Shown here: one piece after another, positions 23,611 to 34,265 of the stretch | How positions within the stretch are numbered: position 1 is the first letter of the stretch | How the letters are laid out: the number at the start of each line of letters is the position of its first letter | NCBI RefSeq assembly: GCF_004349105.1 | Contig: NZ_SMLB01000019.1 | Location: 1-64,000 of the forward strand | Source of the DNA: Jiangella aurantiaca | Lineage (GTDB): Bacteria > Actinomycetota > Actinomycetes > Jiangellales > Jiangellaceae | Direction of reading: 5' to 3' | DNA: 64,000 bases | Notes under the pieces: model-generated | Told to the model about the DNA's origin: nothing | Seen by the model: only the letters and a program-made list of their open reading frames with translations | The model's database searches: none | Program-made: the position numbers and the translations under genes

Positions 23611-25611
23611 ATGCCACGCACCGCCGTCGTCGCCGCCATCGCCGCACTGGGACTCATTGCCGGGCTGGGGGTGAGTACGACGGCCTCCGCGCCGGCCGCA
23701 CGAGCCGCCGCCGGCGACGTCCGCACGTTCGACGCCGAGCCACTCGGCGCGCCGCCGGCCGGCTACACCACGCAGGGCGACGTCACCGTCGCCGAGGCGC
23801 CGTTCGGCGCGCCTGGTAACCGCGCGGTGCACCTGGCCGACTACACGTCGACACTCCAGTCCCGCCTGCAGATTCCCGCACCAGCGGCCGCTGCCAGGCG
23901 GTTCGAGTTCGACTTCGCCATGCACACGACCCGGCAGGCGGTGTTCGTCGCCGTGCACGCCGCCGGCGACAACCCGGCGCTCGGGACGTACCGGTTCATG
24001 ATCAACCCGGTGTACCCGTACGGCGGTAGCACCACCGCCCAGGTGTCGGTGTATGACGGGCAGCGGTACCTGCGCCTGGCGACCGTCCCGATGCTCACCG
24101 CGCGCGACCACCCGAGCCGCGTCCGCATCGACGCGAGCATCGAGGCGGCCGTGCTGACGGTGAACGGAATGTCGTTCCGTACCACTGTCCGGGCGTCCGG
24201 CGGTAGCGCGATCACCGGCCTCGAGTTGGCCTCGAGCGGCGCGTCCGGAGTCGGCTCCGACGCCTACCTGGACGACGTCGCGCTGAGCGACCTCGACCCG
24301 GCCGGCCCGGCGCTGGCCGAAGGGCTACCCGTCACCGGCGTCCTGCCGTCCTACGTCGCCGAGAAGCACCCGGCGTCCACCGTCGTCGCGACCATCGACG
24401 CGCCGGACGTGCGGGCGGCGCAGGTGCGAGCAGAGGTCGTCGTCGACGGCGTCGACGAGCCGTTCGCGGGACGCGTGCACGGCGAGACCGGGCGGCTGCT
24501 CGTCAGCGCCCCGATCGACAGCGAAGACATCGGGCTGCACCCGGTGACCGTCACCGTCACCGACCTGCGGACCGGCGTCACCCGCTCCACCCAGATGCGG
24601 ATCCAGGCGTACGCGCCGATACCCGCGCGGGTCGTGTCCCAGGAGCCGGCGGGTGCGGCCGAGCCGCGCTTCCCCGACGCGGTCCGGCTGGCCGACGGCA
24701 CGATAGTGCTGGCCTACCACTTCGCCGACGCGCACACCAACGCGAACGGCGTGGTCCGCATGGTGCGTTCCGCGGACGGCGGCAAGACGTGGACGGACCC
24801 CGTCACCGTCGCGGCGACCGCCGGCGCCGACAACCGCGACCCCAAGCTCAACGTGCTGCGCGACGGGACCGTGCTGCTGACGGTGTTCCGCACCGACTGG
24901 TCGACCCGGCCGGAGAGCAACCTCGGCACGTTCGTCTACCGGTCGGTCGACGGCGGGCTGACGTTCCCGGAGGTCACGCGGGTCGAGAGCGCACAACCCG
25001 GCGCCTGGCAGCACGGCCCCGCCGTCGAGCTGCCGAGCGGCGACATCCTGCAGCCGCTGTATGGGTACGGCGCCCGGGTCGCCCGCAGCACCGACGGCGG
25101 CCGCACCTTCCCTGCGGCGAACGAGCTCACCGTCGTCGAGGACGACGCGCGGTTCTCCAACGGCGAGCCGAACATCGTCCGGCTGCCCAGCGGCGAGCTG
25201 GTCATGCAGATCCGCCGTCACGACAACCTGCTGGGCATCGAGAGCGAGTCGACCCTCGTCCGCTCCTATGACGACGGCCGCACCTGGACCGACCCCGAGC
25301 CCACCGGCCTCCCGGCGTCGTCGGCACACCTGCTGCTCACCGCCGACGGCTCGGTGCTGATGACGTACGGCAACTACGCGCAGCCGGGCCGGCCGACGTA
25401 CGGCGTGCTGATCGCGGATCCGGCCGGGCCGTGGACGCAGCACCGGCCGGTGCCGCTGTACAACTCAGGCTGGGAGGACCAGGCCAACCCCACGAGCGTC
25501 CAGCTCGACGACGGCACGTTCCTCACCTTCGGCTTCGACGTCGCCGACCGCACCGTCGTCTCCTTCCGCTCGGCCGCCGACGACTACGAGGCCCGCTTGT
25601 TCCAGCCGTAG
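23611..25611 (+). CDS. Secreted sialidase-like (BNR/Asp-box) glycoside hydrolase
   Basis: A 666-residue protein. A Sec signal peptide (about residues 1-33, ending ARAAA) is followed by a laminin-G/concanavalin-like N-terminal domain to about 230 and a beta-sandwich linker region to about 335. A six-bladed propeller follows, with at least four Asp-boxes: SADGGKTWTD, SVDGGLTFPE, STDGGRTFPA and SYDDGRTWTD. This is the GH33-like exo-alpha-sialidase fold; substrate specificity cannot be confirmed, and related BNR proteins cleave other sugars. CAGGAG precedes the ATG at 23611. The 3' end overlaps the convergent peroxiredoxin gene by 28 bp. Confidence 0.87.
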   Translation: MPRTAVVAAIAALGLIAGLGVSTTASAPAARAAAGDVRTFDAEPLGAPPAGYTTQGDVTVAEAPFGAPGNRAVHLADYTSTLQSRLQIPAPAAAARRFEFDFAMHTTRQAVFVAVHAAGDNPALGTYRFMINPVYPYGGSTTAQVSVYDGQRYLRLATVPMLTARDHPSRVRIDASIEAAVLTVNGMSFRTTVRASGGSAITGLELASSGASGVGSDAYLDDVALSDLDPAGPALAEGLPVTGVLPSYVAEKHPASTVVATIDAPDVRAAQVRAEVVVDGVDEPFAGRVHGETGRLLVSAPIDSEDIGLHPVTVTVTDLRTGVTRSTQMRIQAYAPIPARVVSQEPAGAAEPRFPDAVRLADGTIVLAYHFADAHTNANGVVRMVRSADGGKTWTDPVTVAATAGADNRDPKLNVLRDGTVLLTVFRTDWSTRPESNLGTFVYRSVDGGLTFPEVTRVESAQPGAWQHGPAVELPSGDILQPLYGYGARVARSTDGGRTFPAANELTVVEDDARFSNGEPNIVRLPSGELVMQIRRHDNLLGIESESTLVRSYDDGRTWTDPEPTGLPASSAHLLLTADGSVLMTYGNYAQPGRPTYGVLIADPAGPWTQHRPVPLYNSGWEDQANPTSVQLDDGTFLTFGFDVADRTVVSFRSAADDYEARLFQP

Positions 25612-26159
25612 AACGGCGCGCGGTCGCCGGCCTCCCAGCGTTCCCGCAGGCCCGGCGTGGTCAGGTCCCAGTCGGGCCGGATCTCGCGGGTCACCTCGCG
25701 CAGGTCGTGCCACAGGTCCACGGTCGAGGGGCGGCCCCAGAACCAATAGCCGTTGTAGACCGAGTGCACGACGAGCCCCGGCTTGAGAACCAGCGTGTGC
25801 GGGATCATCGGGTCGTCTGCGGGGTCGGTGTACTCCTGGATGTCGAGATCGCGCTGCACGGTCCGCTCCGGGTCGGAGAGGAACGGCCACTGCGCGCCCA
25901 CCGCGTCGTGGAACTCCTGGGCTCCACGGGGCGTGTCGGGCGTGATCGTGGCGATCTTGGTGTAGCCCACGACGATCTTCGGGTAGAACGCGGCGAGCTC
26001 GAGGTGCTGCTGGTGCTCCTTGGGGCAGTAGCCGCCACGGGCCAGGGTGAGGATCATCGGGTCCTCACCCTGGATGTCGCTGAGCCGGCGCGGGGTGTTG
26101 GTGTGGTCGGGCAGTTCGTAGTCCGGGAACGTCCCGCCCGGGGCGAGTTCGGGTCGCAC
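25584..26159 (-). CDS. Peroxiredoxin/AhpC-TSA-family protein
   Basis: A 191-residue thioredoxin-fold protein. APGGTFPDYELPDHTN opens the family domain and LTLARGGYCPKEHQQHLE carries the one clear cysteine near the position of the peroxidatic Cys (normally PxxxTxxC), here in the order GGYCPKE. DPERTVQRDLDI and IPHTLVLKPGLVVHSVYNGYWFWGRPS resemble the strands of thiol-specific antioxidant proteins. Peroxide reduction is an inference because the standard PxxxTxxC order is altered. The GTG at 26159 has GGAG 7 bases upstream. Confidence 0.75.
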   Translation of the reverse strand: MRPELAPGGTFPDYELPDHTNTPRRLSDIQGEDPMILTLARGGYCPKEHQQHLELAAFYPKIVVGYTKIATITPDTPRGAQEFHDAVGAQWPFLSDPERTVQRDLDIQEYTDPADDPMIPHTLVLKPGLVVHSVYNGYWFWGRPSTVDLWHDLREVTREIRPDWDLTTPGLRERWEAGDRAPFYGWNKRAS

Positions 26160-26220
26160 GACTGGTCTCCTTCGGTTGACGAGCCCGGCCGGGCTCTCGG
26201 TGACGTGGACGACCGGCCTG

Positions 26221-27081
26221 CTAGCGGACACTCGCCATCGCGGCCCGCTCGATCACCCTGGTCACGGTCTTGGGGTCCGACATCAGGCCGACGTGCCCCT
26301 CGTTGTACTCGAGGATGGTGGAGCCGGCTCGTTCGGCCATGGCCCGCTGGACGTCGCCCGGGATGATCGTGTCCTTGGTGCCGACGAGGTACCACGACGG
26401 GATCGTCCGCCACGCAGGCGACCCGGACGGCTCGTTGAGCGCCCCGACGGTGGCCGGCCGCTGGGTGGCCGCCACGAGCGCCTTGTCATCGGCCTTCAGC
26501 CCGGTGGCGAACGAGTCGAACACGGTCGACCTCTTGAGGTACAGGTCGGTGTCCGCGGTGGGTGGGAGGGTGGCGGGAACGAAGTCGAAGATGGTCGTCG
26601 GGTCGGGCACCGAGAGCGCGGAGTCCGGCCCCGCGAGTTGTGTCGCGGACTCGCCGGCGTCGGGCGCGAAGGCGTTGACGTAGACCAGCGCCTCGACGTT
26701 CGGGAGCCCGGTGGCCGCGTTGGTGATCACCGCCCCGCCGTAGGAGTGGCCGACGAGGACGACCGGTCCTGGAATCGTCTCGAGGAACGTCCGCACGTAC
26801 GCGGCGTCACCCGAGAGCGATCGGAGCGGATCGGCGACCGCCGCGACGGTGTACCCGTCGTCCTGGAGCCGCTCGATCACTCCGTTCCAGCTGGAGGCGT
26901 CGGCCCAGGCTCCGTGCACGAGCACGACGGTGGGTTTCGGGGTCCCCGGCCGGCCCTCCTGGGCGACGACGCTCTGCGCCGAATGGGGGCTCACCAGGAC
27001 GAGGGCGGCTGCGGCGAGGAGCATCGCCGCCGCGCGGGGTCGTCTTCTGGCTTGGACGGATGCGTTACGGGCGCTGGTCAT
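26221..27081 (-). CDS. Secreted alpha/beta hydrolase
   Basis: A 286-residue protein with an N-terminal signal peptide (RRRPRAAAMLLAAAALVLV, cleavage around the QSVVAQ segment) and an alpha/beta-hydrolase fold: VVLVHGAWADASSW (oxyanion loop), nucleophile elbow VVLVGHSYGGAVI, and GHVGLMSDP near the C-terminus supplying His. It resembles EstC/salicylate-esterase-type hydrolases of Actinobacteria. Substrate unknown. It precedes the peroxiredoxin gene by about 60 bp on the same strand, so the two may be co-transcribed. Confidence 0.88.
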   Translation of the reverse strand: MTSARNASVQARRRPRAAAMLLAAAALVLVSPHSAQSVVAQEGRPGTPKPTVVLVHGAWADASSWNGVIERLQDDGYTVAAVADPLRSLSGDAAYVRTFLETIPGPVVLVGHSYGGAVITNAATGLPNVEALVYVNAFAPDAGESATQLAGPDSALSVPDPTTIFDFVPATLPPTADTDLYLKRSTVFDSFATGLKADDKALVAATQRPATVGALNEPSGSPAWRTIPSWYLVGTKDTIIPGDVQRAMAERAGSTILEYNEGHVGLMSDPKTVTRVIERAAMASVR

Positions 27082-27429
27082 TGCTCTGTCCTGTCTGTGC
27101 GATGGACGACTCGCTAGATCAGACCGGACACCGGCTGCCGACGTGACACTCGCCGGCTCGGGACGGACGGGGTGAGCGTCGACTCGCGGTTTCGCCCGGC
27201 GGACGGTCGTCGGGATGCGTGGCGTTCGCCGTCCCCCTGCTGATCATGGTTCTCGCGTCACTTCACCAGGCGTCGTTCCGCTCCACCAGGCATGCATGGG
27301 TGGTCCGTTCACCGTCGCCCGCGGCCGGGTGGTCGAGATCGAGACCGTCATGGATCCCGACCGGATCCGCGAGTTCGACATCCAGTTACTCGACGCCTGA
27401 CCGGAGCACGCCGTGAGACGCTGGAGCGC
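27082..27429. other. Intergenic region with gene remnant
   Basis: About 350 bases upstream of the RelA-like operon. It holds a short coding remnant (27296-27400) and a CTGCTGATCATGG phrase (27236-27248) like that of the hairpin at 13837. The operon promoter must lie here but was not identified. Confidence 0.5.
27296..27400 (+). pseudogene. C-terminal remnant of an ECF41-type sigma factor or SnoaL-like protein
   Basis: The frame reads MGGPFTVARGRVVEIE, then DPDRIREFDIQLLDA and a stop. This matches the usual end of the SnoaL-like domain in ECF41/SigJ-type sigma factors (FTVxxGRVxxIDxxxDPxRLxxLDLxxLDA). Nothing upstream supplies the rest of such a protein and no ribosome-binding site is convincing. 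It looks like a decayed gene end left by deletion. Confidence 0.5.
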
Positions 27430-28713
27430 ATGCCGGGCGGCGAGGGCGACAGCCAGCGACCCATCGCGGACGGCGTCGACGGGCTGCGGGAGTTGCACGA
27501 CCGCGAGCTGCCGGCGGCCGTCGGCGAGGTCGCCGAGCACGTCCGCGACGAGCTTGCCGAGGTGCGGCGCCTGGCCGAACGGGCCCGCCGGCACGTCGAC
27601 CCGCGCGTGCTGACGGCCCTGGCCGACGCGGCCCGGCGGATGCCGGACGGCGTCCACGCGTTCGGCGCGGACGTGTCCGCCGTGCTCTCGTCGGTCACCG
27701 GCGAGCTTGACGCGCTGCGACGACCCGACACCGGAGCGTCGACGACTGCCGTGCCTCGGCTGGTCGACGCCGACGCGGCCGTGACCTCCGCCCTGGCGGG
27801 TCCGCACGCCGACGTCGCGGCCCTGGTGGCGCGGCTGCTGGCCGACGTCGCGCATCCGCTGGACCTGACCCGCGCGCTGCGCGACCCGGACCTTCGCGCC
27901 GGCACGCTGGCGATCCTCGCGGAGCTGGCCGACGGCCGCGCGCTGGCCGGCCGGAGCCTGGACGAGTACCTCGCCGCGCGTCCCGGTCGCGGCCCGTTGT
28001 TCGCGCCGGTGCCCGGCGAGGCGCTGACCACGGCCGACGGCCGGTCCCGCAAGGAGCTGTTCGTCGCCGCGGCCGTCCGGCTCGATCCCGGCCGGGCCGT
28101 CGGCGCCGATCCCACCCCGGAGCAGCGGGCCCTCCTCGACGACTACGTCCGGCGGCTGGTCGAGCAGGTCGAGCCGCACGTGCGGGTCGAGTTGGGCGAG
28201 CTGGCCGCCGCCTATCCGGGCACCACCGTGAGCACGCGCGTCAAGGACCCGAACGGCCTGGTCGACAAGGTCCGGCGGATGTCGGCCGGCGGCACGAACC
28301 GTCCGGCCCGCGAGGGCTACCGGGTCGGCGACGTCCTCGACGCCGTGGGCACGCGGATCACCGTCGCCGGCACCGCCGAGCTGGCCGCGCTCACCGCCAC
28401 CGTGGTGGAGCGCTACGGCGTCGGCGACGGCGGCCGGGTGCTGGACTGGGAGAACCGGTACACCGACCCGAAGCCGCACAATCCGGCCTACCGGGTGGTG
28501 CCGTTCATCCTCGGTGTGCGCGTCGGCGGACTCCCGTACCCGTTCGAACTACAGTTGACCACGCGACGGGCCTCGGTCGCCGCGGACCTCGAGCACAACA
28601 CCGTCTACAAGCCGTACGTGCCCGTCAGCGACCCGGAGCGCGACCGCGTTCGCCGCATGCAGGCCGAGGCGGCCGCACTCGATCAGGACGACACCAGGAG
28701 CGACGCGCGGTGA
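27430..28713 (+). CDS. RelA/SpoT-domain nucleotidyltransferase-like protein
   Basis: A 427-residue protein. The C-terminal part (about 260-400) fits the RelA_SpoT synthetase fold: STRVKDPNGLVDKVRRM, YRVGDVLDAVGTRITV (Asp), YTDPKPHNPAYRV, FELQLTTRR (Glu and Gln of EIQ) and ADLEHNTVYK, comparable with AEIEHdxxYK of small alarmone synthetases. The GYRSLH-type G-loop is altered to AYRVVP, keeping Tyr. The first 250 residues are helical, Ala/Asp/Arg-rich and unrecognised; ordinary SAS proteins are about 200-250 residues. GGAG precedes the ATG at 27430. It overlaps the next gene by 4 bp. It may make an alarmone or pyrophosphorylate another acceptor; neither is shown. Confidence 0.8.
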   Translation: MPGGEGDSQRPIADGVDGLRELHDRELPAAVGEVAEHVRDELAEVRRLAERARRHVDPRVLTALADAARRMPDGVHAFGADVSAVLSSVTGELDALRRPDTGASTTAVPRLVDADAAVTSALAGPHADVAALVARLLADVAHPLDLTRALRDPDLRAGTLAILAELADGRALAGRSLDEYLAARPGRGPLFAPVPGEALTTADGRSRKELFVAAAVRLDPGRAVGADPTPEQRALLDDYVRRLVEQVEPHVRVELGELAAAYPGTTVSTRVKDPNGLVDKVRRMSAGGTNRPAREGYRVGDVLDAVGTRITVAGTAELAALTATVVERYGVGDGGRVLDWENRYTDPKPHNPAYRVVPFILGVRVGGLPYPFELQLTTRRASVAADLEHNTVYKPYVPVSDPERDRVRRMQAEAAALDQDDTRSDAR

Positions 28714-28973
28714 CCGACACGAACCATGCGTGGGTGTGGATCGGGCATGTGACGACCGGCGACGGCGAGACCGCCGCGGCCTTCGTCATCGACGAGCGCC
28801 AGTACCCCGACGCCGACGCCGCCCAGGCGGCCCTCAACGCGGCCGCCGCGGAGCTGCGCCGGCGCCGCATCCCGCACGAGCTGGAACACGTGCGGGTCCG
28901 CATCGACGCGCCGGCGGAGCCGCTGCCCACCTGGGCCGAGTACCGTGCCACACTGCCCGACGGCGACGCGTGA
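28710..28973 (+). CDS. Small protein between RelA-like and HD-hydrolase genes
   Basis: An 87-residue protein, GTG start overlapping the stop of the RelA-like gene and stop overlapping the GTG of the HD gene (4 bp each). Predicted pattern: beta strands (HAWVWIGHVTT, AAAFVIDERQ), a helix (DAAQAALNAAAAELRRRR), another strand (ELEHVRVRID) and an acidic tail. No family is recognised. The coupling implies fixed stoichiometry with its neighbours, so a role as a second antitoxin, adaptor or allosteric subunit is possible inference. Confidence 0.75.
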   Translation: MTDTNHAWVWIGHVTTGDGETAAAFVIDERQYPDADAAQAALNAAAAELRRRRIPHELEHVRVRIDAPAEPLPTWAEYRATLPDGDA

Positions 28974-29575
28974 AGACCTTCGGTACCTGGCTGACCTGGG
29001 ACGACGCCCGGGCCGCACTGACGGGGCGGCTGCCCGCCACGGACCTCGACCTGCTGGCCGCCGCCTACGCGTTCGCCGCCGAACGGCACGCCGGGCAGAC
29101 GCGGCCGGCCGGCGAGCCGTACACCCGGCACCTGCTGGAGGCGGCCGAGATCCTCGCCACCGAGCTCGCCGTCACCGACGCCGAGCTGCTCGCCGCCGCT
29201 CTGCTGCACGACGTCGTCGAGGACACTCCGACCACGTCCGCTGAGGTCGCGCAGCGCTTCGGGCCGCGAGTCGCCGCGCTCGTCGACGGCGTCACCAAGC
29301 CGCCGCCGGGGCCGGGCGAGGACCCCGCCGCCGTCAGACGGCGTTATCTCATCGGCCTGCGCGATCTGCCCGCCGACGGGCTGCGCCTCAAGCTGGCCGA
29401 CCGGTACAGCAACGTGCAGCGCCTCCACACCCACCCGCGGCCGGAGAAGCAGCGCAGCTACTACGCAGAGACCTGCCGCGACCTCGTCCCGCTGGCCGCT
29501 GTCGACCCGCGCCTGGCCGCCCTCTTCGCCGACTGGGAGCGCGCCTACGCCTACCTCGCCGACACCCCGGCCTGA
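28970..29575 (+). CDS. HD-domain (p)ppGpp hydrolase-like protein (small alarmone hydrolase)
   Basis: A 201-residue protein close to the hydrolase half of RelA/SpoT homologues. HAGQTRPAGEPYTRH (about 40-54), LLHDVVEDT (His80, Asp81, Glu84, Asp85), FGPRVAALVDGVTK and KLADRYSN (Asp144) together supply the metal-binding and catalytic set expected of an active Mn-dependent alarmone 3'-pyrophosphohydrolase. It lacks the synthetase, TGS and ACT domains, as in MESH1/SAH proteins. GTG start overlaps the 87-residue gene. It likely removes a product of the RelA-like protein encoded two genes upstream; that pairing is inference from gene order. Confidence 0.88.
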   Translation: MKTFGTWLTWDDARAALTGRLPATDLDLLAAAYAFAAERHAGQTRPAGEPYTRHLLEAAEILATELAVTDAELLAAALLHDVVEDTPTTSAEVAQRFGPRVAALVDGVTKPPPGPGEDPAAVRRRYLIGLRDLPADGLRLKLADRYSNVQRLHTHPRPEKQRSYYAETCRDLVPLAAVDPRLAALFADWERAYAYLADTPA

Positions 29576-29774
29576 GGTCTCCTGGGGTTTGACGCGGTCG
29601 GTGACGGTGCGCCAGGCTATGAACCTGGCGTGGCTCCCGCCTCACCTTCGCCGACCGGCCCCAGCCTGGTCCTGCTCAGAAGGCAAAGGGACTTCCTGTC
29701 TCGAGCCGCTCGTCCTGGTCACCTGCCTCGGGCGAGATCGCTGGGGGATCGCGCGCGAGTGCTTGGGAGGCCGG

Positions 29775-30734
29775 ATGACAGCGCACAGGAACCTCAAACG
29801 CCGGGTACGTGCTCGCGCCGCCAAGACGGGCGAGTCTTACGTGGCTGCTCTCCGGCACTTCCGTCCGACTCCGACAGGAGATGACATGCCGGACCACACT
29901 CACACCACCCTGCGGATCGCCGTCGCTCAGTCGACGGTGCGCGACGATCCCACCGACGCCGACGGCTTGCGCGGCAGCGCGGCGGAGGTCCGCCGGTTGA
30001 TGAAGGAGGCGGCCGAGGCCGGGGCCCGACTGGTGCATTTCACCGAGGGCGCGATCTGCTTCCCGAGCAAGTTCGTGTTGTCCGAGCTCGGGCCGGACCA
30101 GGTCGGGCCGTCCGACTGGAGCCGGGCCGCCTGGGCGGTGCTGGACGAGGAGCTCGACCGGATCGCCGCGCTGTCGGGCGAGCTCGGGATCTGGACGGTG
30201 ATCGCCTCGGTGCACCGGCGGCCCGCTCCGGCACGTCCGCACAACAGCCTGTACGTCCTCTCCGACGAGGGAAGGGCCGCGGCGCGGTACGACGAGCGCA
30301 CGTTGTCCAACACGAAGATCAGCTACATGTACTCCCCTGGTTCGAGGCCGGTGACATTCGCCGTCGACGGGTACCGGTTCGGCCTCGCTCTGGGGATGGA
30401 CGCGCATTTCCCCGAGGTGTTCACGGAGTACGAACGGCTCGACGTCGACGGCGTGCTGATGTCGTACGAGACGGGCGGACTTCCCGGCCGGGAGACGGTG
30501 GCGACAGAGGTCCGCGGGTACGCCGCGGCGAACAGCTACTGGATCAGCCTGGCCGTGCCGGCCGACCCGTCCGGTCCGCACGCGGGGGTGATCGGTCCGC
30601 GTGGCGCCTGGGCCGCCGAGTGCCCGCCGGACGGCCAGCCGGCGGTCGCCGTCGCCGACCTGCACCGTGAGGACACGCTCGGCCCGCTCGCCCGCGACTG
30701 GCGCCGCCGGACGCGGAGCCGCATCGGCGTCTAG
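29775..30734 (+). CDS. Nitrilase-fold (carbon-nitrogen hydrolase) protein lacking the usual Cys
   Basis: A 319-residue protein. Residues about 5-30 carry NLKRRVRARAAKTGESY, a basic ribbon/helix-like segment seen ahead of several actinobacterial enzymes. From about residue 45 the nitrilase fold begins: LRIAVAQSTV, then Glu in HFTEGAICFPSK, a Lys in LSNTKISYMY, and GLALGMDAHFPEVF where nitrilases normally have ICYDxRFPE. The catalytic cysteine position appears to be Gly, so amidase or nitrilase chemistry is doubtful. The ATG at 29775 has GGGAGG upstream. Function unknown. Confidence 0.82.
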   Translation: MTAHRNLKRRVRARAAKTGESYVAALRHFRPTPTGDDMPDHTHTTLRIAVAQSTVRDDPTDADGLRGSAAEVRRLMKEAAEAGARLVHFTEGAICFPSKFVLSELGPDQVGPSDWSRAAWAVLDEELDRIAALSGELGIWTVIASVHRRPAPARPHNSLYVLSDEGRAAARYDERTLSNTKISYMYSPGSRPVTFAVDGYRFGLALGMDAHFPEVFTEYERLDVDGVLMSYETGGLPGRETVATEVRGYAAANSYWISLAVPADPSGPHAGVIGPRGAWAAECPPDGQPAVAVADLHREDTLGPLARDWRRRTRSRIGV

Positions 30735-30752
30735 CGGCAGCCGAGGCATGCG

Positions 30753-31283
30753 TCACCGCGACGCCGTCAGGCGGACGGCGTCCGCGGTGACGACCGTGCC
30801 GAAGCGAGGAAGGTTCAGCCCGACGGCGGCGTCGTGCTCGGGTGCGGTGAGTGCGGTCATGGCCTCGGCCACGAAGACGAGGTCGTAGCCGAGGTCGGAC
30901 GCGGCCCGGGCGGTGGACTCGACGCCGAGGTTGGTGGCGATGCCGCCGAAGACGAGCGTGCTCACACCCCGCGCCTGCAGCTGTTCGTGCAGTTCGGTGC
31001 CGTAGAAGCCGCCGATCGTCCGCTTGACCACGACGATGTCGCCGTCGGACACCAGGCCGGCGACCAGGTCGCTGCCGGGCGGCTGCTCGGCGACGCCGGG
31101 CCGCTCGACCCGGATGAGGACGACGGCCGCACCGGCGGCACGGAACCCGGCGGCCAGCTCGCGCGCCGTCGCGACGACGTCCGTGCCGCTGCGTGGCGCG
31201 AGCGGCTGCCCCACGATGCGGTCCATGAGGTCGACGAGGACGAGTGCGGTGGCCGACGGGTCCAGCTCCAGCTGATCGGGCAT
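30753..31283 (-). CDS. Isochorismatase-like (cysteine hydrolase fold) protein lacking the nucleophile
   Basis: A 176-residue protein with the isochorismatase fold: TALVLVDLMDRIVG (Asp of the triad), VVKRTIGGFYGTELHEQL (Lys), and LVFGGIATNLGVESTARAA, where TNxCVxST would place the catalytic cysteine; here it is Gly. The fold is intact, so it may bind a ligand or act without the thiol. The start at 31283 (ATG) is preferred over a TTG at 31292. It is convergent with the nitrilase-fold gene. Confidence 0.83.
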   Translation of the reverse strand: MPDQLELDPSATALVLVDLMDRIVGQPLAPRSGTDVVATARELAAGFRAAGAAVVLIRVERPGVAEQPPGSDLVAGLVSDGDIVVVKRTIGGFYGTELHEQLQARGVSTLVFGGIATNLGVESTARAASDLGYDLVFVAEAMTALTAPEHDAAVGLNLPRFGTVVTADAVRLTASR

Positions 31284-31411
31284 GTCGGCCAACCTATCGC
31301 CCGGCCTGCGCCGTGCTGCTCGGGCCCGCAGCTGGGCAAGATCGACACAATGATCGCGACGCGCAGTCCGGCGACCTGTACGACAACATGGACGCTCTTC
31401 TTTGAACAGGC

Positions 31412-31494
31412 AAATACCTTTGGGTGGACTTGACGGACATGGGCTTGTCAGGGAAGGCTAGGCGACCGGTCGCGACGGAAATAGAGAGGTATTT
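31412..31494 (+). promoter_or_regulatory. Inverted repeat that could mask the ribosome-binding site
   Basis: AAATACCT (31412-31419) and AGGTATTT (31487-31494) are complementary, and the second arm contains the AGAGG/AGG ribosome-binding region of the gene starting at 31499. Pairing would hide the start region. Arms are short and 67 nt apart, so this is tentative. Confidence 0.35.
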
Positions 31495-31498
31495 ACTC

Positions 31499-32122
31499 AT
31501 GCAAGCAATTCATAGGGCTGCGATGGCCGCGCCACTGGCTGTCGTTGCACTCGCCATCGCAACGCCTGCATTTGCAGTCGACGACGACGCACTCACCTCG
31601 TTGAATACTGACGTGAAGGCGCAGCTGGAGGCAGACCTCGAGGCGGCGATCGAGGCCCGCATCGAGGCCGACGTCGACGTGGACATCGAGGCTGACGTGC
31701 ACGTCTCCCTCGCCGGCACCGTCGCTGTCGACGTTCACCTCGACGGCGAGGTCCAAGCCGATGTCGACGCCGAGGTCGAGAGCGCCATCGAGGCAGACCT
31801 CGAGGCCGCGATCGAGGCCGAACTCCAGGCTGCGGTCGCGGCCGGCATCGAGGGCGTCGTCGGCACCGGCGTGGAGCCTGAGGTCGATGTCGACGTCGAT
31901 GTCAGGCTCGAGGCAGGGGCCGATGCCGAGATCGCGGTCGTTGCCGAACTCGCTGCCGGCGCGCAGGCGGATGCCGAAGTCGCCGATGCCGAGGCCGGCG
32001 CCGATGCGGACGCCGGGGTCGCGGCCGAAGCGGAGGCCGGCGCCAGCGCTGACGCTGGCGCTGCTGCCGAAGCCGAGGCCCAGGCCGGTGTCGTGGTCGG
32101 CAAGGTCCTGCGTCAGCTTTGA
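31499..32122 (+). CDS. Exported acidic low-complexity protein
   Basis: A 207-residue protein with a Sec signal peptide (residues 1-26, MQAIHRAAMAAPL to TPAFAVDDD). The mature part is almost wholly Ala, Glu, Asp, Val, Ile and Gly. It falls into helical-looking Ala/Glu runs (DLEAAIEAELQAAVAAG), alternating Val/Asp runs (EADVDVDIEADVHV, VDVDVDVRLEAG) and a terminal Ala/Glu/Asp/Gly-rich tail. Imperfect repeats of about 8-14 residues recur. There are no cysteines or aromatics and very few basic residues. A Ca2+-binding or envelope-coating role is possible inference. No family is recognised. Confidence 0.75.
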   Translation: MQAIHRAAMAAPLAVVALAIATPAFAVDDDALTSLNTDVKAQLEADLEAAIEARIEADVDVDIEADVHVSLAGTVAVDVHLDGEVQADVDAEVESAIEADLEAAIEAELQAAVAAGIEGVVGTGVEPEVDVDVDVRLEAGADAEIAVVAELAAGAQADAEVADAEAGADADAGVAAEAEAGASADAGAAAEAEAQAGVVVGKVLRQL

Positions 32123-32162
32123 GCGCCCGGGTCGTTCGCGCTGCGTGGTGACTCCCCGCACA

Positions 32163-32209
32163 GTCGTGGCGCTGTTCGTCACCGTTCAGCGGACGAACAG
32201 CGCCACGAC
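32163..32209. terminator. Terminator hairpin
   Basis: A perfect 18-bp stem (32163-32180 against 32192-32209) with an 11-nt loop lies 40 bp after the acidic-protein stop and before the convergent ABC permease stop. It probably ends both transcripts; no strong T-run follows. Confidence 0.8.
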
Positions 32210-32324
32210 AATGCGATTTCTGAAGCCGAACGAGAATCCGGACGGTCCTGGAGTTCAGCGAGAACTCGCGGGGTGAATTGATCCTCGGACTATTTCCGAT
32301 CGAAAACCGCTCAGGGCGCCGTGC

Positions 32325-34265
32325 TCATCGAGCCAGTTCCGCTTGAAGGATTTCCGCTGTCGGGCGGCGACCTCCGAGGCGAGCCGGAATGAGCGTGAGC
32401 ACAGCCACCACCAGGACTGTCGCGGGCGGGACGGCGAGCAGCTGCCACAGCGGCGGGTTCGCTGCCTCGTCGCTCAGAGCGGACCACAGGGCGAGACCTC
32501 CGGGGATGGCCAGCACGGCACCGGCGAGCGCGGGGAGCACCTGGGCGGCCGAGAGCGCGGTGCTGACGGCGCGCGGCGTCGCGCCGAGCGCCCGCGCCAG
32601 CGCCGTGGAGTGCCTGGCGTCGAGGGCGGTCGTCCAGGTGACGAAGACCGCGTTGAGGGCGGCCAGCGCGATCAACATCACCGCGATCACGAGCAGCAGC
32701 CGGTCGACCTGGGCAGCGTCGGGATCCAACTGGGAAGGACCTTCCCATTCCCGCGCGATCTCGTTGCGCGCGGCCAGCAACGTGACGATCCCGCTGACTG
32801 TGACGACGATACTGAGTGTGCTCAGCACCATGCGGCGCGGCCGCCGGGCGGCCGTCCGCAACCCGAGCAACAGCGGGGCCGGCAGTCGGGCCGCGAGGGC
32901 GATCAGCCAGGGCGTGCGCCGGGGTGGCCGAGCCTTGTCGGCGAGAGCCTCGACGGTGCTGGTCGAGGCGGCACGGAGCGCGGGAACGAGGGACGCCACC
33001 ATTGCTACCCCGAGCGCCACTGCCGTGACCACGCCAGCGGTGGCCAGGGTCAGCGAGGGCGCGCCGGCACTGCCGAGGAGGCCGGCACCGGGGTCGGTGA
33101 ACAAGCGCGCGGTCAGCCATCCGACAGCGAGCCCGCCCACCGCGGCGACAAGCGCCAGGACGACGTATTCGGCGAGGAGGACAACGGCGACCAGGCGCGG
33201 TGTGCCGCCGACCGCCTTGAGCAGTCCGACCCGACGGGTCTGGTCGGCGAGCCGGCCGCCGACCAGTACGGCGACGCTGGCCAGGCCGAGCACGGCGAGC
33301 AGCCAGCTGAACGTGACCAGCACTTCTCCTCGCACCTCCACCAGCTCGCGATACGCGTCGCGGAGGTCCTGCCACGACAGCAGCACGGGTTCCGTCGTGA
33401 TGCCCGACGCGGCATGCCCACTGACGAACGCCGGAGCTGCGGCCGGCTCGGCCAGCTCCAGATTCACGACGTAGGACAGGAGATCCTGCTCGGAGGCGAG
33501 GCCACGGAGGTCCTCCTCGGTCAGCCAGACCAAGCCGGCGTCGTCGGGCGGGATCGGGAACGATTCGAAGTCGACCCGTCGGGCGGTCGACGGGACCGGC
33601 GGCGAAGAAGGGTTGATGACCTCTTCCGCCGTGAATATGGTGCACACCCAGCCGAAGCAGACATCGGTGTACGGCAACGCAGCCGCCGTGACGGCGACGC
33701 CGACGACCTCGAAGCGGTCGCCGTTGAGCGCCAGCCGATCCCCGACGCCGACATCGAGGACGTCGGCGAAGGCGGCCTCGACGACGACACCACCGGCTTC
33801 GAGCCACCGTCCGGCAGTCAGCTCGGGCCGGTCGACGGCGGCCCCGTCGGGGTCGTGCCCCTGCGCCCACACCTCGGTGGTGACGGCGTCCACCTCGAGA
33901 TCGGCGACGATCGCCGGGTACGGACCGCTGTGGGCGATGACGCCGGACTCCTCGGCCAACTCCTCCAGGGCGGCGATGTCGGCGGGAACGACGGCGGCCT
34001 CGGCGGGCTGCCGGAAGCCCTCGTCGTCGACCACCGTCCCGTCCGAGGTCGGGACGAAGTCGGGCCCGGCGCTGGCGACGACGTCGGGACCGGCTGTCGC
34101 CTCCTTGGTGCGCTGGTAGGGGCTGTCGGTCACGCCGTGCAAGGCGAGTCCGAGAGTGAGCGTTGTTGTGGCGGCCATGATGGCAAGCAACAGGAGCGCG
34201 GATTCGACCGCGCGTCTCCGCACGCTGCGGGCGGCGAGGCGGCCTACGAGCAGGACGCGGCCCAT
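32325..34265 (-). CDS. FtsX-like ABC transporter permease
   Basis: A 646-residue membrane protein of the MacB/FtsX type: an N-terminal helix (ESALLLLAIMAATTTLTLGLAL), an extracytoplasmic domain of about 270 residues, then a FtsX core (LVTFSWLLAVLGLASVAVLVGGRLADQTRRVGLLKAVGGTPRLVAVVLLAEYVVLALVAAVGGLAVGW) and a second FtsX block near the C-terminus (LARALGATPRAVSTALS). Typical of permeases that export lipids or peptides or transmit envelope stress. The start at 34265 lies 4 bp after the ATPase stop. It forms one operon with the ATPase and PadR genes. Confidence 0.9.
   Translation of the reverse strand: MGRVLLVGRLAARSVRRRAVESALLLLAIMAATTTLTLGLALHGVTDSPYQRTKEATAGPDVVASAGPDFVPTSDGTVVDDEGFRQPAEAAVVPADIAALEELAEESGVIAHSGPYPAIVADLEVDAVTTEVWAQGHDPDGAAVDRPELTAGRWLEAGGVVVEAAFADVLDVGVGDRLALNGDRFEVVGVAVTAAALPYTDVCFGWVCTIFTAEEVINPSSPPVPSTARRVDFESFPIPPDDAGLVWLTEEDLRGLASEQDLLSYVVNLELAEPAAAPAFVSGHAASGITTEPVLLSWQDLRDAYRELVEVRGEVLVTFSWLLAVLGLASVAVLVGGRLADQTRRVGLLKAVGGTPRLVAVVLLAEYVVLALVAAVGGLAVGWLTARLFTDPGAGLLGSAGAPSLTLATAGVVTAVALGVAMVASLVPALRAASTSTVEALADKARPPRRTPWLIALAARLPAPLLLGLRTAARRPRRMVLSTLSIVVTVSGIVTLLAARNEIAREWEGPSQLDPDAAQVDRLLLVIAVMLIALAALNAVFVTWTTALDARHSTALARALGATPRAVSTALSAAQVLPALAGAVLAIPGGLALWSALSDEAANPPLWQLLAVPPATVLVVAVLTLIPARLGGRRPTAEILQAELAR

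Follow-up and report, generated by a model that had tools for sequence, protein, structure and literature searches.

In the MuF prophage polymorphic toxins, the synthetase toxin Apk2 is encoded ahead of IapK, which occludes its active site, and Aph1, a pppApp-cleaving HD enzyme; IapK is mostly effective on its own toxin and Aph1 acts on all three toxins tested, mostly partially (PMC12226406). FaRel of Cellulomonas marina, a toxic small alarmone synthetase (toxSAS) that is itself actinobacterial and is described as a toxin-antitoxin system, is flanked by a small alarmone hydrolase (SAH) and a binding antitoxin (PMC11782079). RelA/SpoT-like toxin domains were noted in 2012 on polymorphic toxins of the ESX/type VII secretion system (T7SS) (PMC3482391), and a T7SS-exported synthetase with an immunity-like open reading frame (ORF), AaEAS, was tested in 2025 and makes (p)ppGpp (PMC12691689). 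We analyzed a three-gene locus of Jiangella aurantiaca within a 64,000-nucleotide stretch of contig NZ_SMLB01000019.1 (the window), comprising genes for a 427-amino-acid protein with a predicted alarmone-synthetase unit, an 87-amino-acid protein, and a 201-amino-acid HD protein. The locus is likely to be a polymorphic toxin cassette with two layers of immunity: an exported synthetase toxin would be encoded together with a dedicated protein that binds it and an accessory hydrolase that removes what it makes.

The locus combines features of Apk2/IapK/Aph1, FaRel, and the T7SS synthetases, and its logic has already been published. Like Apk2-IapK-Aph1, it would pair a C-terminal synthetase toxin with a small binding immunity protein and an HD hydrolase reversing the product (PMC12226406), but the window toxin is from an actinomycete host. 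A full-protein Pfam scan (limit, E of 10; matches above 0.1 are mostly removed by HMMER filters) found no MuF domain in gene 1. FaRel is alike in joining a synthetase toxin to a binding antitoxin and an SAH, whereas its toxin gene lies between its antitoxin genes and the window toxin gene comes first and has a swappable N-terminal module (PMC11782079). Exported alarmone synthetases, AaEAS especially, share a C-terminal SYNTH domain with about 120 upstream residues predicted to co-fold, and a small downstream ORF regarded as an immunity gene; AaEAS differs in its LXG N terminus, and the available part of its description does not mention an HD immunity gene (PMC12691689). The ESX/T7SS RelA/SpoT-like toxins place the same catalytic class on T7SS-type toxins, but an HD hydrolase immunity pairing is not mentioned in the part of that paper available (PMC3482391). 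Bxa-Bsi-BAH likewise combines a polymorphic toxin with two immunity proteins, one that binds and an enzyme that reverses the product, but its toxin is an ADP-ribosyltransferase (PMC11699363). A literature search with partial coverage and without supplements found no report of such an exported toxin from actinobacteria alongside an HD immunity gene. What is new here is an immunity family that has not been classified, together with an acceptor loop of unusual sequence; the branch and its small protector are little described.

Gene structure of the locus

The features of the locus are as follows.

27430..28713, forward strand: gene 1, putative toxin of 427 amino acids, N-terminal module plus C-terminal alarmone-synthetase unit; ATG start, TGA stop
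27430..27729, forward strand: N-terminal module, residues 1-100, common to Jiangellaceae endonuclease and ADP-ribosyltransferase toxins; from homology, with helices modeled at low confidence
27799..28710, forward strand: conserved toxin unit, residues 124-427, a helical extension carrying PGRGPLF, with the SYNTH fold after it; also present in Streptomyces, Nocardia, and others
28228..28710, forward strand: SYNTH core, residues 267-427; from the YwaC alignment, predicted structure, and locus alignment
28710..28973, forward strand: gene 2, small immunity-like protein of 87 amino acids, predicted beta-beta-alpha-beta-alpha; GTG start
28970..29575, forward strand: gene 3, HD protein of alarmone-hydrolase type, 201 amino acids, residues of RelA/SpoT homologue (RSH) hydrolases retained; GTG start
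27263..27400, forward strand: C-terminal remnant of an extracytoplasmic function (ECF) sigma factor gene, context only; tblastn 4.8e-13 and 4.2e-11

The three genes overlap by 4 bp at both junctions, each of which reads GTGA, exactly as a first-pass annotation made from the sequence alone had placed them. A longer alternative ORF for gene 1 begins at 27292; the start at 27430 is favored because the gene of a relative (L036, from Jiangella endophytica; L numbers designate individual loci) is called from MPRGEGDSERPIADG. The three-gene order was found again in other genera, well beyond close relatives, where identity to the window proteins is 48–51% for the toxin unit, 51–57% for the HD protein, and 24–38% for the small protein. 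Against three Jiangella relatives, the ratio of nonsynonymous to synonymous substitution rates (dN/dS) is 0.27–0.47 across the three genes. Since the order recurs in other genera and dN/dS lies in this range, all three are considered real genes. We rejected the idea that the N terminus of gene 1 is a spurious extension, because its homologues have a common start and the whole gene has a dN/dS of 0.43–0.47. A scan of positions 27050–29900 found no promoters or terminators.

The comparisons below use 17 complete loci, counted from 21 sources with the fragments L043, L061, L064, and L066 excluded; fragment L050 lies outside the count. Among the excluded fragments, the small family is present in L043, L061, and L064 and the HD gene in L043, L064, and L066. 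Duplicates were counted once (L004/L036/L046; L038/L065; L043/L048; and three S. clavuligerus records, represented by L034). The family profiles were built partly from the same loci, and their scores are not independent.

The C-terminal part of the first protein is predicted to be an alarmone synthetase

Pfam RelA_SpoT matches residues 269–394 of the gene 1 product with an E value of 2.2e-4, under the curated cutoff (21.9 versus 27 bits), and a single-sequence search of the PDB at E values up to 10 found no alarmone synthetases. The toxin-family profile reached YwaC among PDB sequences at an E value of 0.012. The AlphaFold2 model has a clear small alarmone synthetase (SAS) fold over residues ~230–427, with confidence averaged in ten-residue blocks of 84–97 for residues 111–420 and at most 60 for residues 1–110. 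The model matches RelP (6ewz; Foldseek E of 3.2e-6, TM of 0.62) and B. subtilis SAS1 (5dec; VIA Z of 14.7, 3.0 Å over 179 residues), followed by CapRel (VIA Z of 12.9), the exported SaEAS (8vx3; 11.5), and Tas1 (6ox6; 9.9). Eleven positions that we take to be those of the SYNTH active site, placed via the YwaC profile alignment (R270, K272, K280, R283, D304, R309, Y354, E373, Q375, H389, and K394), are retained in 16 of the 17 loci, the exception being the degenerate L040. The RelA_SpoT character that the first-pass annotation had assigned to this protein is thus borne out by the predicted SYNTH fold and the active-site residues, with the Pfam match remaining below the cutoff. The L038 and L040 proteins each have a second RelA_SpoT-like stretch ahead of their C-terminal toxin unit (Pfam E of 0.0096 and 2.6e-4, below the cutoff).

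The acceptor loop reads YRVVP in the window and YRSLH in YwaC, with P358 replacing the YwaC His. Its last residue is Pro in 16/17 loci, and this may mean that another acceptor is used. One candidate is the 3' end of tRNA, which CapRel, FaRel2, and PhRel pyrophosphorylate; the HD protein would then repair tRNA, a scheme compatible with a polymorphic toxin. The YR..P loop and the presence of CapRel among the close folds fit such a target. However, the nearest folds are ppGpp synthetases, the HD partner most resembles RSH nucleotide hydrolases, and the T7SS-exported AaEAS, which may or may not belong to this family, makes (p)ppGpp (PMC12691689). We therefore regard tRNA as an improbable target.

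The N-terminal module and the toxin unit are both exchanged

In the gene 1 product, residues ~1–110 form a swappable N-terminal module and residues ~111–262 extend it with helices; the SYNTH fold comes next. Relatives outside Jiangella align only from about residue 124–144 onward. Within Jiangellaceae, 11 of 22 genomes contain the module, of ~100 residues, with 27 occurrences in all, a number of which are weak matches or broken. All five members chosen first for scanning end in the DNA/RNA endonuclease domain Endonuclea_NS_2, and the endonuclease genes have closely downstream a gene for ~150 amino acids, which was YezG-like in three of the four scanned (E of 4.6e-4 to 5.4e-3, below the cutoff). 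Four further module proteins end in ADP-ribosyltransferase domains above the cutoff (2/4) or in unidentified sequence (2/4). Jiangellaceae frames of 435 (L097) and 365 (L109) amino acids join the module to an ADP-ribosyltransferase C terminus.

The toxin unit, for its part, is joined to WXG100_2 N termini in five of the nine non-Jiangella N-terminal parts scanned (L038, L039, L059, L060, and L062). These proteins of ~1,600–2,600 amino acids, from Nocardia aurantia, Nocardia nova, and three further genomes, carry the toxin unit at or near the C terminus; some contain other toxin-like domains mid-protein, such as Gln_amidase, and L059 has additional sequence C-terminal of the toxin unit. Small WXG100-like genes were seen by eye directly upstream in L059, L060, and L062. 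Exchange at both ends is a hallmark of polymorphic toxins. The gene 1 product has a short N-terminal module ahead of a C-terminal toxin unit, as in that class, and is not an enlarged toxSAS. A compact stand-alone toxSAS toxin has about 200 amino acids, whereas gene 1 encodes 427 and begins with a module common to other toxins.

The same genes could instead form an intracellular toxSAS toxin-antitoxin or anti-phage system, with the N-terminal module serving in sensing or regulation and with the small protein and the HD protein as first and second antitoxins. FaRel has exactly such a binding antitoxin and SAH (PMC11782079), the S. antimycoticus locus is on a plasmid and adjoins an ABC-three-component gene set, and the module belongs to no recognized export family. 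We consider this arrangement unlikely, because the module heads unrelated toxin domains, with the endonucleases having their own kind of next gene, and because the toxin unit lies near the end of WXG100_2 proteins of this length, as expected for exported polymorphic toxins.

The small gene is the constant partner of the toxin gene

A gene of the small family directly follows the toxin gene in all 17 complete loci. Its product is a separate protein of ~90 amino acids or a domain of a longer protein (L038, L039, L040, L059, and L060). Tandem copies, which are usual for immunity genes, occur in L062 and, in the extended form, in L040. Twelve of the 17 loci have all three genes, and across their 66 pairs, mean identity is 41% for the small protein, 56% for the toxin unit, and 61% for the HD protein; the small protein falls below the toxin unit in 60 pairs and below the HD protein in 64. 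By this measure of sequence divergence, the small gene is the fastest changing of the three partners.

The model of the small protein (pLDDT of 88, pTM of 0.75) has a beta-beta-alpha-beta-alpha order. No Pfam family was found above the cutoff, the best match among PDB sequences had an E value of 0.69 (a set that may not include IapK), and the model had no Foldseek match at E values of ≤0.001 and no convincing relative by VIA (best Z of 4.1). Matches of the window protein to PADLOC DruD (E of 0.0022, weak) and NCBIfam GVDTG_CTERM (E of 6e-4, below the cutoff) were not taken as meaningful. The simplest reading is that the small protein would be a dedicated binding immunity protein.

The HD protein is an auxiliary partner

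The gene 3 product matches Pfam HD_4 at 9e-22, over the cutoff, and TIGR00691 spoT_relA at 1.2e-26, under a cutoff that is set for whole long Rel proteins. Residues H40, H54, H80-D81, E84-D85, D144, and N148, presumably the catalytic set that the first-pass annotation had recognized, are invariant in 13/13 aligned sequences. The protein most resembles MESH1 and the hydrolase domains of long Rel enzymes and resembles the (p)ppApp hydrolase 7smg less, a relationship that hints at (p)ppGpp as the substrate.

The HD gene is present in 12 of the 17 loci, immediately after the small gene except in L060, where one gene lies between. It was not found within 18–21 kb around L038, L040, L044, L059, and L062; the Jiangella locus L044 keeps the toxin and small genes. 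In L042 (11178-12218), one protein has two tandem HD domains. Because the HD gene occurs in 12/17 loci and the small gene in 17/17, the putative hydrolase is an auxiliary rather than a core partner.

These results change the class of the locus more than its biochemistry. The first-pass annotation had proposed a locus related to toxSAS systems but distinct from them, with an extra small protein between the synthetase and the hydrolase. The pairing stands, but the architecture is that of a polymorphic toxin, and the hydrolase is optional while the small gene is constant. The extra small protein does not set the locus apart, since FaRel (PMC11782079) and Apk2 (PMC12226406) also have a binding partner and a hydrolase, and the roughly double size, taken to mark a distinct locus, is due to the swappable module and the helical extension. 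The earlier biochemical reading fits the evidence, and the classification moves from an unusual toxSAS to a probable polymorphic toxin of the alarmone type, accompanied by two immunity genes, so that the proposal is partly supported.

The toxin unit is rare

The toxin unit was found in 4 of 11 other Jiangella genomes. By profile, it occurs in 8 of 393 genomes sampled from the class (five complete Jiangella copies, including that of the window's own genome, and three fragments). Further genome samples gave 2/351 (both full), 2/341 (one full), and 3/394 (two full), and one more sample gave 2/35, both of them fragments that are also among the eight of the class sample. A scan of one genome-contig collection yielded eight loci, one of them a fragment, and a plasmid collection yielded four Streptomyces records. 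PADLOC gave no matches for the toxin or the HD protein, one scan of IMG/VR found no relatives of the toxin unit, and GenBank phages gave a single weak match, in an archaeal phage (E of 5e-3). In that phage, Nitrososphaera phage Pro-Nvie1 (FR725450; L035, 3899-4531; tblastn), the matching protein is annotated as Rel_Spo-like and is encoded directly after the portal gene. In bacterial phages, this is the site where MuF-type toxins sit.

The distribution bears on whether the locus is a housekeeping stringent-response enzyme, with Rel split into synthetase and hydrolase genes, as two RSH-type domains encoded side by side might suggest. Two further RelA_SpoT genes in the genome score over the Pfam cutoff, one of them a 998-amino-acid frame like a long Rel, and the locus is patchy, both among Jiangella genomes and across the class sample. 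Moreover, the constant partner is the small gene and not the HD gene. A split housekeeping Rel was rejected on the two other RelA_SpoT genes and the patchy distribution, and we give it almost no credence.

Two neighbors of the locus are recorded as side observations. The ECF sigma factor gene (SigJ-like by appearance), of which only the tail at 27263-27400 is left directly upstream of the toxin gene, is intact at this place in two other Jiangella loci, L036 (8708-9601) and L047 (8272-9186). Downstream, positions 31424-32122 hold a 232-amino-acid ORF, mostly acidic repeats like EADVDVDIEADV, that also has a hydrophobic stretch close to the beginning (by eye).

Type VII secretion is a plausible route of delivery

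In the window's own genome, a gene for a 1,556-amino-acid EssC/EccC-like ATPase with FtsK/SpoIIIE domains adjoins a WXG100 gene, both matches being under the curated cutoffs. The host genomes of six named relatives all have an EccC match, over the cutoff in five, and two of these relatives (L038 and L039) carry WXG100_2 forms. By analogy with exported synthetases, delivery of the 427-amino-acid protein by a T7SS is plausible.

Several observations weigh against an exported toxin with this route. A T7SS-type ATPase (E of ≤1e-60, none over the cutoff) is present in 20 of the 22 Jiangellaceae genomes, with or without the module. Its presence is therefore nondiscriminating, and T7SS co-occurrence was rejected as evidence. 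No T7SS genes were seen by eye among the ORFs of the window at 25,000–33,000. The N-terminal module, which is neither LXG nor WXG100 by Pfam, was modeled at low confidence, and a Pfam scan of 10 members gave no consistent family and a sole, weak match to EspC (E of 0.18). Of the nine N-terminal parts scanned from outside Jiangella, the other four (L040, L042, L061, and L063) gave no WXG100_2. The Streptomyces toxin N terminus is acidic and of low complexity (L033 being the one scanned). L033, L037, L041, and L063 have a gene for a HerA-like ATPase upstream, which is broken in L064 and reduced to a trace in L034. Finally, the toxin unit of L040 has lost catalytic residues, with immunity-like genes still present. 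The HerA-like gene overlaps the Streptomyces toxin gene in L033 (1841-4873) and L041 (6105-9020), and this ATPase is perhaps related to the TrwB-linked cluster in PMC12691689.

Proposed mechanism

In the polymorphic toxin cassette that we favor, the 427-amino-acid protein would be an exported antibacterial toxin. Its N-terminal module would mark it for delivery, with the T7SS as the first candidate route. In the recipient cell, the SYNTH unit would move pyrophosphate from ATP onto a nucleotide, yielding (p)ppGpp and/or (p)ppApp and depleting GTP and ATP. The producer and its siblings would be protected twofold: the 87-amino-acid protein may bind and block the synthetase, and the HD enzyme may hydrolyze alarmone that escapes the block. 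There is a slim chance that the biology departs further from precedent, with the YRVVP toxin unit, whose extension is conserved from Jiangella to Nocardia, acting on an acceptor other than GTP or ATP, the module serving an undescribed export route, and the immunity proteins comprising a new fold and a product-specific hydrolase.

On this model, the cassette would extend to actinomycete polymorphic toxins the logic of toxin, binding immunity, and product hydrolase seen in the MuF toxins and the FaRel operon. The presence of a nearby hydrolase in 12 of 17 loci, and not in the other 5, offers a natural comparison for asking when the product must be destroyed in addition to blocking the toxin. The small proteins represent a family of ~90 amino acids, probably synthetase inhibitors, with no Pfam match above the cutoff, and the N-terminal module would mark further toxins in Jiangellaceae.

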